From assembly GCA_035631875.1 (NCBI GenBank), contig DASQHX010000009.1:363281-427280 (forward strand): 64,000 nt of DNA, in the 5' to 3' direction. A program made the position numbers and the translations under genes. Source of the stretch: Nitrosopumilaceae archaeon. GTDB lineage: Archaea > Thermoproteota > Nitrososphaeria > Nitrososphaerales > Nitrosopumilaceae. Below are positions 1,103 to 22,445 of the stretch, piece after piece (position 1 is the first letter of the stretch; every line of letters begins with the position of its first letter). Under the pieces are notes generated by a model. It had not been told where the DNA came from. It searched no databases and worked only from the letters and a program-made list of their open reading frames with translations.

Positions 1103-1870
1103 TCAAGCAATATCATCACTATCTTTTTTTCTAGTAATTTTTTGTTTTGAGGAACCTTCTTCTTTTATGTAAGTGTCATAAGTATGAAATACTTGTTTTA
1201 TACTCTTCAAATATGTTTCAAAATTAGGAATTTTTATTGGTTCATAAAAATAGTTTGTGTGCACTTTGGTCAGATTATTTTTGGATAGTCCTACGCCTTC
1301 AAGTACATGAATGGGTTTACTATCAACCGAATGAACCCATCCAAGTGATCTGATTTTTTCTATAAATTCTTCAAAAAGAGTTAGCTCATTTGTAGCCATT
1401 CGCAAGATGAAATCATAGTTTTGACCTTCTCCCTGAACAAGGTCTATTGCTGTCACTATACCATATTCTCTGCTTATTTCAACTAAATTACCATACATCT
1501 CAGAGTATGGAATTACTCTTCGCTCAAAAAGTGGATTCTGCGATTTTATGAAAGTATACCATTGGTTATCAAATAATTTACTTGGATCTACTAGAATCCA
1601 CTTTATTTTATCGTCTTTCTTACTGTCTTCTGTGTTATTATGCTCTATAATGACGCCTTTTTTTATGAGTTCATCTACTCTGTTTTTAACATTATCACGT
1701 GAAAGAACATAACCGTATTTTTCAAGATCCTTGTTTGCTGTATCAGGAGTCGCACCACTTTGTAATACATGAAGAATAAGTAAATCAAGAGGGCCAATAC
1801 CGTTCTTGGTCATGTTTTTCACAGGCACTACATTGTCAGGACTATCTGTATTCCTACCTACCATGCTCAT
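1103..1870 (-). CDS. Winged-helix (Lrp-like) regulator, hypothetical
   Basis: A 255-residue soluble protein. Residues about 25-75 look like a winged helix-turn-helix (GPLDLLILHVLQSGATPDTA, then a second helix with SRDNVKNRVDELIKKGVI). The middle (about 110-200) alternates strands and helices in a way reminiscent of the ligand-binding half of Lrp/AsnC-type regulators (YGIVTAIDLV, then NELTLFEEFIEKIRSLGWV), and the C-terminus is a basic tail. It sits 7 bp upstream of the methyltransferase gene on the same strand. The start ATG at 1870 is followed by a second ATG at 1864; homologs would decide. The HTH assignment is moderately sure; target and effector are unknown. Confidence 0.6.
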   Translation of the reverse strand: MSMVGRNTDSPDNVVPVKNMTKNGIGPLDLLILHVLQSGATPDTANKDLEKYGYVLSRDNVKNRVDELIKKGVIIEHNNTEDSKKDDKIKWILVDPSKLFDNQWYTFIKSQNPLFERRVIPYSEMYGNLVEISREYGIVTAIDLVQGEGQNYDFILRMATNELTLFEEFIEKIRSLGWVHSVDSKPIHVLEGVGLSKNNLTKVHTNYFYEPIKIPNFETYLKSIKQVFHTYDTYIKEEGSSKQKITRKKDSDDIA

Positions 1871-2005
1871 AAACTGCTAAACTAATGTTAAAAATATTTA
1901 CTACACTTTTGTCACAAAAATGCTGAACCAGTGTTTTTACGCACGATGCTTTGCTCACAAAAGTACAATTCTCGGATTTTTTGTTGCAAAAAGTGTTCTA
2001 ATAGA

Positions 2006-2012
2006 TTTATAA
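2006..2012 (+). promoter_or_regulatory. TATA box for the small zinc protein at 2027
   Basis: A TTTATAA element ends 15 bases before the ATG at 2027. This predicts transcription starting at or just after that ATG, i.e. a leaderless mRNA, and argues for this start over the upstream TTG at 1931. Confidence 0.5.
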
Positions 2013-2026
2013 TTTTTCAGCCAAGT

Positions 2027-2263
2027 ATGACCATGACATCAATACCAACAATTGAACGCATTGAAAAATCGCAATGCCGCACATGTTCACAAAATTGTAC
2101 AAAATTATGTGTGACTTGTGGATGTGCCTTTTGCAATAGGCATCTACTCTCACATTCTGAAGGATGTGGTAACCAATATCACAAAATCATCCGCACAATC
2201 CTTCGAGATGATATTAAGAATGGTTTGATAAATGTGCTGGAAGTAGTGTTGCGGTCTTTATGA
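2027..2263 (+). CDS. Small B-box-like zinc-binding protein
   Basis: A protein of 78 residues from the ATG at 2027. A longer frame opens at a TTG at 1931, but its first 32 codons overlap the TATA box and do not look coding. Residues about 17-47 hold a dense cysteine/histidine pattern (CRTC, CTKLCVTCGCAFC, then H, H and C) like a B-box zinc finger or AN1-like treble clef. The rest is a short helical tail. It ends 21 bp before the hammerhead ribozyme core. Function unknown; such mini zinc proteins often mediate protein-protein contacts. Confidence 0.6.
   Translation: MTMTSIPTIERIEKSQCRTCSQNCTKLCVTCGCAFCNRHLLSHSEGCGNQYHKIIRTILRDDIKNGLINVLEVVLRSL
2256..2262 (+). promoter_or_regulatory. Possible TATA box upstream of the hammerhead
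   Basis: A CTTTATG stretch lies about 25 bp upstream of 2281-2286, so transcription from it would begin almost exactly at the 5' strand of ribozyme stem I. It overlaps the last codons of the preceding gene. The match to the archaeal TATA consensus is moderate. Confidence 0.35.
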
Positions 2264-2283: not shown

Positions 2284-2336
2284 TCCCCTGATGAGTCCGT
2301 GAAACTCGGACGAAACAACATTGTTTGTTGTCGGGA
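2284..2336 (+). ncRNA. Hammerhead ribozyme (type I arrangement) in a 5' leader
   Basis: All invariant hammerhead parts are present in order. Stem I 5' strand UCCC (2284-2287); core CUGAUGA (2288-2294); stem II GUCCG/CGGAC (2295-2299 with 2307-2311) closed by a 7-nt loop; core GAA plus A15.1 (2312-2315); stem III of six pairs (2315-2320 with 2326-2331) closed by UUGUU; the U16.1-C17 cleavage dinucleotide (2331-2332); stem I 3' strand GGGA (2333-2336). Every stem is perfectly paired. Predicted self-cleavage is between 2332 and 2333, leaving a 27-nt leader with a Shine-Dalgarno sequence before the ATG at 2360. Stems II and III are capped and stem I is open. Stem I is only 4 bp and no certain loop-loop partner for loop II is seen, so in vivo speed is uncertain. 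The element lies between two genes and overlaps no well-supported coding sequence. Confidence 0.9.
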
Positions 2337-2345
2337 GAAACCAGA

Positions 2346-2352
2346 GAGGTGA
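2346..2352 (+). promoter_or_regulatory. Shine-Dalgarno GAGGTGA for the gene at 2360
   Basis: GAGGTGA lies 7 nt before the ATG at 2360. It is a strong match to the 16S rRNA tail and is unusual here, because many neighbouring genes look leaderless. It decides the start: the TTG at 2321 lies inside ribozyme loop III. Confidence 0.75.
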
Positions 2353-2359
2353 AAATAGA

Positions 2360-3031
2360 ATGATTGAAACCATAGAAAATAAAGAAATGCAAACTAACAA
2401 CAAAAGTAAGAAAATGAATAAGACAGGTCAACTATGCGTTTTTGCAAGTGTTTTTGCAGTGCTAATAGTTGTAACAAATTTTGGATTTGCTTGGGCTGAT
2501 ACTGGAGCAAACAACACCAATACAATATTAGCTACAGATGCCATAAAGAACAACCCCACAGAAATGAAAATTCTTGAAAACATAGAATTATTCAAGCAAA
2601 GATATGCTGCAATGCAACAAAAACAACAGATAGTAGATCAGCAAAACCAGTTCATAGAGCAACAACGTAAAATTGCAAATGCGTATTTGCAAAATGATCT
2701 TGAGGGTATGAATAACGGAAATGATCTAACTGCTCCAAAGAATGCATATGCAGGCTTTGTAACGCATGTAGACAACTCTGCACAGAGTCTTTTTTGGGAT
2801 CAATTTAATTTCATGCAACAAAAGATTCAGAATGCAAGAAATGCAATGAATCAAGTGCTTAGAAATGGTGGTACCATGCAAGAGGCTTTACAGGCATACA
2901 ATAATGAAGCTGCAGTCCACAAAGATCAACTGGTAAGCATCAACAAGGACTTAAATGTCAAATACAATCTTGCAGATGCAAAAGTCCAGAGCTTATTCAA
3001 TAAGGATGGAAAGCTGAGCAGAAACGCATAA
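2360..3031 (+). CDS. Exported glutamine-rich coiled-coil protein
   Basis: A protein of 223 residues from the SD-preceded ATG. After a basic N-terminus (about 20 residues) comes a hydrophobic segment ending in AWA-D, a plausible signal peptide or anchor. The mature part is helical and rich in Gln/Asn (AAMQQKQQIVDQQNQF and FNFMQQKIQNARNAM), suggesting coiled coils, with no cysteines or known catalytic motif. It is the first gene after the hammerhead and would be translated from the cleaved mRNA. I do not recognise the family; a cell-surface structural or binding role is a guess. A T-rich stretch at 3039-3058 may terminate transcription. Confidence 0.7.
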   Translation: MIETIENKEMQTNNKSKKMNKTGQLCVFASVFAVLIVVTNFGFAWADTGANNTNTILATDAIKNNPTEMKILENIELFKQRYAAMQQKQQIVDQQNQFIEQQRKIANAYLQNDLEGMNNGNDLTAPKNAYAGFVTHVDNSAQSLFWDQFNFMQQKIQNARNAMNQVLRNGGTMQEALQAYNNEAAVHKDQLVSINKDLNVKYNLADAKVQSLFNKDGKLSRNA

Positions 3032-22352: not shown

Positions 22353-22445
22353 GGGCTCGTAGCGCAGAGTCTTATTGACGCGCAACATGGATAGCGCAGT
22401 AGCCTCCTAAGTTACAGGTCGAGGGATCGAAGCCCTCCGAGCCCG
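22353..22445 (+). tRNA. tRNA-Arg (anticodon CCU) with an 18-nt D-loop intron
   Basis: After removing 22368-22385, a clean 75-nt tRNA results: acceptor GGGCTCG/CGAGCCC with discriminator G, D-stem GCGC/GCGC with a GG-containing loop, anticodon stem GTAGC/GTTAC with loop CTCCTAA (CCU, reads AGG), five-base variable loop and T-arm GAGGG/CCCTC. CCA is not encoded. Without removal the D-loop would be 28 nt and impossible. The T-loop begins with A rather than T, a small oddity. Confidence 0.92.
22368..22385 (+). other. Non-canonical tRNA intron with BHB motif
   Basis: The 18-nt intron splits tRNA positions 15 and 16. The pre-tRNA folds as bulge-helix-bulge: a 4-bp central helix GCGC (22362-22365) with GCGC (22380-22383), a 5' bulge AGA (22366-22368, cut AG|A), an inner 3-bp stem GTC/GAC with a 5-nt loop, and a 3' bulge AAC (22384-22386, cut AA|C). 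The resulting G15 can pair with C48, which supports these junctions over shifted ones allowed by the repeated GCGCA. Confidence 0.85.

Follow-up and report, generated by a model that had tools for sequence, protein, structure and literature searches.

We found a type I hammerhead ribozyme with an open stem I between two genes on the forward strand of the window, which here means the whole stretch of 64,000 nucleotides that was analysed and which is part of a 1.76-Mb, 13-contig thaumarchaeal genome. The host belongs to a group of ammonia-oxidising soil archaea; among named relatives, Thaumarchaeota MAGs such as TA_20 and Candidatus Nitrosotalea stand nearest to it. The ribozyme has been kept intact in 24 species, with one copy per genome, and this conservation suggests that it is used for cutting one mRNA into two. 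From sequence comparison, it is very probable that the element is a genuine type I hammerhead within a two-gene operon and that it splits the bicistronic mRNA in two. The parts of the motif are as follows.

2284..2336 (+), type I hammerhead ribozyme, stem I open; assigned from the sequence, a descriptor with chance test, conservation in 23 aligned loci, and searches with the covariance models R1 and R2
2284..2287 (+), stem I 5' strand, UCCC; pairs with GGGA at 2333-2336, 4 bp
2288..2294 (+), catalytic core CUGAUGA, positions 3-9, with N7 at U2292, its sole varying position in 23 loci
2295..2311 (+), stem II, GUCCG (2295-2299) with CGGAC (2307-2311), 5 bp; loop UGAAACU at 2300-2306
2312..2315 (+), core GAA (2312-2314) plus A15.1; no variation in the aligned loci
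2315..2331 (+), stem III, ACAACA (2315-2320) with UGUUGU (2326-2331), 6 bp including A15.1-U16.1; loop at 2321-2325
2332 (+), C17, the nucleotide 5' of the predicted cleavage site; C in 18/23 loci, A in 5/23 and G in none
between C17 (2332) and G2333 (+), predicted self-cleavage site
2333..2336 (+), stem I 3' strand, GGGA; opening bases of the predicted downstream product

A sequence-only reading of this DNA had proposed a complete hammerhead core at these positions with Watson-Crick pairs throughout, and it was correct base for base: all parts are in place, and 15 of the 15 pairs read directly from the sequence are Watson-Crick. The type I elements C3U4G5A6N7G8A9, G12A13A14, A15.1-U16.1 and H17 are all present, and three helices surround the core, with loops closing stems II and III and stem I left open. 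For the trimmed motif, the minimum free energy (MFE) fold is the hammerhead itself (-16.3 kcal/mol). When 8-9 flanking bases were added per side, the ensemble also contained a competing fold and the energy z-score was -1.6, and folding energy by itself is thus insufficient as proof. For seven sequences with GAAAC in loop II, MFE values and structures alone were used. Stem I comprises 4 bp and lacks the customary internal loop, and stem III is shortened to 3-4 bp in several Nitrosotalea copies, because of which cleavage could be slow or could depend on tertiary contacts. Two further features, which bear on a possible tertiary contact of loop II with stem I, are conserved across relatives, namely the A-rich bases 5' of stem I and the loop II motif UGnRA, which by loop counts is common to the window copy and to its viral and other archaeal relatives.

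The occurrence of such a motif by chance was assessed with a descriptor comprising the core and stems I/II/III of at least 4/5/6 Watson-Crick pairs. The 2284-2336 element was the one match when both window strands were scanned, and composition-matched first-order Markov sequence totalling 842 Mb yielded none at 4/5/6 pairs and two once the descriptor was relaxed to 4/4/4 pairs. The earlier claim that the match was very unlikely to be fortuitous is borne out by these counts. At its gathering threshold, Rfam 15 called no hammerhead anywhere in the window. Scoring against the Rfam hammerhead models, which the sequence-only reading had suggested as a check, gave sub-threshold values at the locus for both Hammerhead_1 (RF00163; 22.7 bits, gathering cut-off 34) and RAGATH-1-hammerhead (RF03152; 25.4 bits, gathering cut-off 56.3). 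Whether the copy was already catalogued had been left open in that reading, and it proved to be absent from the Rfam calls. Membership in RAGATH-1 was rejected, as its score fell well short of that cut-off, the upstream hairpin of the model is unformed and most of its pairs are non-standard. None of the sampled archaeal and viral relatives tested attains an Rfam cut-off, and these relatives show the Rfam hammerhead models to miss a subgroup with a short uninterrupted stem I that is present in Nitrososphaeria and many viral contigs. The sub-threshold Rfam score is the one observation on the side of a chance match, to which we assign a negligible probability given the absence of random hits at 4/5/6, the invariant core, the covariation described below and the conservation in 24 genomes, the last of which, as judged from these sequences, has already refuted it. 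In our reading, hammerhead identity is settled by conservation and not by Rfam alone. Elsewhere in the window, positions 22380-22437 gave an Rfam tRNA match of 29.3 bits, barely above the cut-off and with D, anticodon and T arms only; this stretch was not called by ARAGORN and is possibly an intron-bearing or partial tRNA.

Conservation was followed in the host's own genus (g1) and in a second genus (g16), which corresponds to Nitrosotalea by named matches. A search with RF00163 over 250 genomes of the family gave weak matches and recovered this element in a few relatives. Other matches to this model, such as L010, L014 and L017-L018, lay within ordinary gene sequence and were rejected, and those at the shared junction were the only ones taken as real. 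Through a search with the exported protein encoded downstream, followed by a scan of the leaders, 23 loci were collected, all from g1 or g16, and from these the covariance model R1 was built; R2 is a broader model. R1 matched 24 of the 250 family genomes at E < 1e-19, and of the 42 genomes sampled from the two genera, 24 had the ribozyme at this gene junction (own genus 4/5, g16 20/37). A second R1 match within these genomes was recorded in G196 alone and was weak (E 0.08). The weak R1 matches L124-L127 (E 0.001-0.005) were judged to be chance; L124, L126 and L127 fall inside same-strand ORFs. The sequence-only reading had named absence of the core from all related genomes, together with lack of a transcript across it, as grounds for giving up the proposal; the core was looked for and is clearly carried by 24 genomes. 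Its remark that hammerheads are rare in archaea is true of the share of genomes that carry one, but the copy is not an isolated one, with counterparts in these 24 genomes as well as in other Nitrososphaeria families and proviruses.

The genes on either side share this distribution. An exported-protein ortholog occurs in the same 24 genomes as the ribozyme, with a truncated copy in G187 (54% identity), while the zinc-finger gene upstream is missing in 17 of the 18 ribozyme-less genomes of the two genera; the remaining one (61% complete) gave a weak partial zinc-finger match only. This matching presence and absence indicates that the zinc-finger gene, the ribozyme and the exported-protein gene travel as one unit. 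Exported-protein orthologs below ~45% identity (L062-L068) had leaders without a hammerhead.

Over the 23 aligned loci, the 11 tested core positions were 100% identical and the stems 96% identical. N7 and H17, the core positions that are free to vary in hammerheads, showed 48% identity; for the neighbouring zinc-finger gene, third codon positions were 52.5% identical and the protein 51%. Stem III differs in length and loop among genomes while its pairing persists, and the 1-2 base insertions and deletions that it carries between genomes argue against a coding constraint. Covariation was assessed in an alignment of 60 archaeal and viral copies, among which the 58 distinct relatives showed compensatory double changes in 12 of 14 pairs. 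Pairing was kept in 99.1% of cells. There were 156 double-change cells compared to 37 in shuffles, a count inflated by the fitting of the alignment to the structure model; when the partners were slid by 1-3 columns, at most 14 such cells remained. Within the 23-locus clade, compensatory changes were limited to 2/14 pairs, both in stem II, because the sequence of this clade is so conserved. These patterns bear on whether the hammerhead is decayed or catalytically idle and is kept, for example, as a protein-binding or mRNA-protecting structure. We regard this as improbable: the short stem I and the surplus sequence conservation in the stems would fit such a role, but the catalytic core is invariant, N7 and H17 vary as catalysis allows (at H17, C and A occur but G does not), and a purely structural element has no need of CUGA.GA or GAAA.

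The gene context of the element in the window comprises the following features.

1103..1870 (-), divergent winged-helix regulator gene; HTH_27 match below cut-off; not part of the ribozyme
2004..2015 (+), predicted TATA-box promoter GATTTATAATTT, 25 nt upstream of the zinc-finger ATG
2033..2263 (+), first cistron, a 76-aa CxxC/HxxxH zinc-finger protein with a near-leaderless mRNA predicted; stop 20 nt ahead of stem I
2346..2352 (+), Shine-Dalgarno site GAGGUGA serving the second cistron, 13 nt past the cleavage site
2360..3031 (+), second cistron, a 223-aa exported protein with a signal-like N-terminus

The two cistrons are separated by a 96-nt gap that holds the ribozyme, and the winged-helix regulator gene is a conserved neighbour in the inspected loci. 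The distance from the TATA box to the zinc-finger ATG is 25 nt in each of the 20 loci with enough upstream sequence, apart from two of them with 26 nt, from which a near-leaderless transcript is predicted. No TATA-like box was found between -120 and the Shine-Dalgarno site in 22 loci. Across loci, the zinc-finger stop lies 6-23 nt from stem I, and the cleavage site lies 10-13 nt from the Shine-Dalgarno site and 20-30 nt from the start codon. In the window clade, the element lies between the stop of one ORF and the Shine-Dalgarno site or start of the next on the same strand. Given this spacing and a promoter before the zinc-finger gene only, we place the element most likely between two cistrons of one transcript, with the promoter and operon calls predicted from sequence patterns. 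The sequence-only reading had described a thaumarchaeal 5' leader, which is right in that the element precedes a protein gene but too simple, since it is intercistronic and the sole conserved promoter lies upstream of the zinc-finger gene. The zinc-finger protein had no Pfam match (78-aa reading from 2027) and no PHROG match (76-aa reading from 2033); the exported protein had no confident Pfam or PHROG match and has many paralogs within the family.

On this arrangement, transcription would begin at the near-leaderless zinc-finger gene, and once the polymerase had moved beyond 2336 the ribozyme would fold and cut the bicistronic mRNA between 2332 and 2333. Hammerhead cleavage takes place 3' of H17 and yields a 2',3'-cyclic phosphate and a 5'-OH. 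The upstream product would terminate in stems II and III, both folded, and carry the cyclic phosphate at its 3' end. The downstream product would become a separate mRNA for the exported protein, starting with a 5'-OH, having a leader of 27 nt and keeping its Shine-Dalgarno site intact. Such a cut would probably serve to give each cistron its own stability and translation. The analysis shows the sequence, predicted structure, conservation, covariation and operon architecture; cotranscription, cleavage in the cell and an effect on expression are what we infer, and in-cell cleavage is proposed because selection acts on precisely the catalytic residues.

An active ribozyme could also have regulation as its main job, with the ribosome that terminates at the zinc-finger stop covering stem I and blocking cleavage. 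Cutting would then indicate whether the first cistron is being translated, or would respond to a ligand or a protein, for which the zinc-finger protein is a candidate. The stop-to-stem I spacing of 6-23 nt is very tight and conserved, and in viral relatives (L087, L099 and other contigs) the upstream stop codon usually abuts stem I directly, both of which would suit such a role. The stem and flank letters are also conserved more than pairing requires, and the ribozyme is inherited as a unit with the genes on either side. However, close packing alone can explain the spacing, and neither an aptamer nor any further conserved structure is visible, and we hold a mainly regulatory role to be possible though somewhat unlikely. 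In viral copies, these stop codons often coincide with the conserved bases 5' of stem I.

Searches with R1 and R2 returned further strong matches (E 1e-10 to 1e-22) in other Nitrososphaeria families. In L130, L133 and L144, a cupredoxin-like gene is followed by DsbD-like or EB_dh genes in operons with a hammerhead. In L134 and its close counterpart L132, the hammerhead lies between the tail terminator and tail tube genes of a provirus, and in L135 it is upstream of a provirus major head protein gene. The recurrence of the same arrangement with unrelated flanking genes is counted in favour of intercistronic mRNA cutting. A phylum-wide sample of 300 gave one weak match outside this class, L142, which was inside an ORF and was set aside as chance. 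L130 (f7) and L133 (f4) seemingly share a junction, in which the cupredoxin-like gene precedes a gene starting SAHQIPEELRPAIMD / SAHEITAELKPAIMD; the L133 copy has a U4C core change (CCGA), and the hammerhead is sporadic within both families. A related hammerhead was noted in L136, L145 and L146 (genus g49); the L136 copy has the core UUGAUGA and is not clearly between two ORFs, with a small CxxC zinc-finger ORF ~110 nt downstream. A weaker R2 match, L150 (G006, f1, g3; E 1e-5), has all three stems and lies ~80 nt past a 268-aa ORF, and no start codon was found downstream of it.

Among viral contigs, at least 120 stretches match a loose hammerhead pattern, and 104 of 139 viral hammerheads are located between an ORF stop and the next start, compared to 700 of 7280 random positions. 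Type I hammerhead arrays were observed in the viral contigs L087 (IMGVR_UViG_3300041956_000313; 8 in 14.8 kb), L099 (3300033153_007262; at least 10 in 14.5 kb) and L095 (3300036857_000320), where most copies are intergenic with a Shine-Dalgarno site and ATG next. A similar type I hammerhead is present in L081 (CANJFK010000177.1), a contig labelled Legionellaceae. These many relatives in viral contigs and proviruses, together with the clustering of prokaryotic hammerheads in prophages (PMC3088659, PMC6155905), raise the question of whether the window copy belongs to a mobile element or provirus, comparable to retrozymes or prophages, and not a host feature. This appears very unlikely, as a single copy per genome sits at one junction with conserved neighbours in 24 species, the exported protein found no match among 50,697 phage records, and neither gene has a convincing PHROG match. 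A viral or prophage gene context was not supported for the window locus, with no viral genes recognised at the junction. Viral origin followed by domestication is possible. In a more specific scenario, which we offer tentatively and consider rather doubtful, the common ancestor of Nitrosotalea and its sister genus acquired a viral-type intercistronic hammerhead, which then passed on vertically as an element of a host operon, with cleavage gated by termination of zinc-finger translation. If true, archaea would here have a domesticated ribozyme in routine use for mRNA processing.

Gupta and Swati (2016, Interdiscip Sci) reportedly made computational hammerhead predictions in archaeal genomes. 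In the literature searched, outside of which their text lies, we found no hammerhead conserved across species at a non-viral chromosomal archaeal operon junction. No paper in that literature joins hammerhead with Nitrosotalea, and ammonia-oxidizing archaea or thaumarchaeota gave incidental mentions. The ribozyme class and the intercistronic idea are already known, and within the literature searched, its conservation at an operon junction of an archaeal chromosome seems not to have been reported. A 2017 review considered the role of prokaryotic hammerheads to be open and stressed their tie to phages (PMC6155905). Most known prokaryotic hammerheads sit in fast-changing phages, which is partly why their role remains open, and a single conserved chromosomal copy in 24 archaeal species offers a fixed case for measuring cleavage, mRNA ends and expression.

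Among known systems, the element resembles Hammerhead_1 (RF00163) in its CUGANGA/GAAA/UH core, three stems, open stem I and predicted cleavage after H17, but it differs in its score of 22.7 bits, its loopless 4-bp stem I and its fixation in an archaeal chromosomal operon. RAGATH-1 (RF03152) gave the top raw Rfam score at the locus and shares the A-rich stretch ahead of stem I; however, the locus is far under its cut-off and does not form its upstream hairpin. Perreault et al. (2011) proposed that hammerhead arrays in prophages may cut phage transcripts to operon- or gene-length mRNAs, and some of these cleaved both in vitro and in E. coli (PMC3088659). They also reported at least three archaeal hammerheads, with type II forms in some archaea. 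It counts against our reading that 4 of their 18 tested consensus hammerheads showed no activity in vitro (PMC3088659). Hammerheads lie between co-directional genes in those arrays as they do here, but the arrays belong to phage or prophage genes in bacteria, whereas the window copy is single and occurs across two archaeal genera. In the haloviruses HF1/HF2, a mapped transcript 5' end and a hammerhead site upstream of a gene lie no more than 3 nt apart (PMC3088659). That HHphage motif is likewise closely upstream of a start codon and in a virus of archaea, but it has a variant core and precedes the first ORF of the viral transcript in high-salt viruses, whereas the window element has a canonical core and stands between two cellular cistrons.
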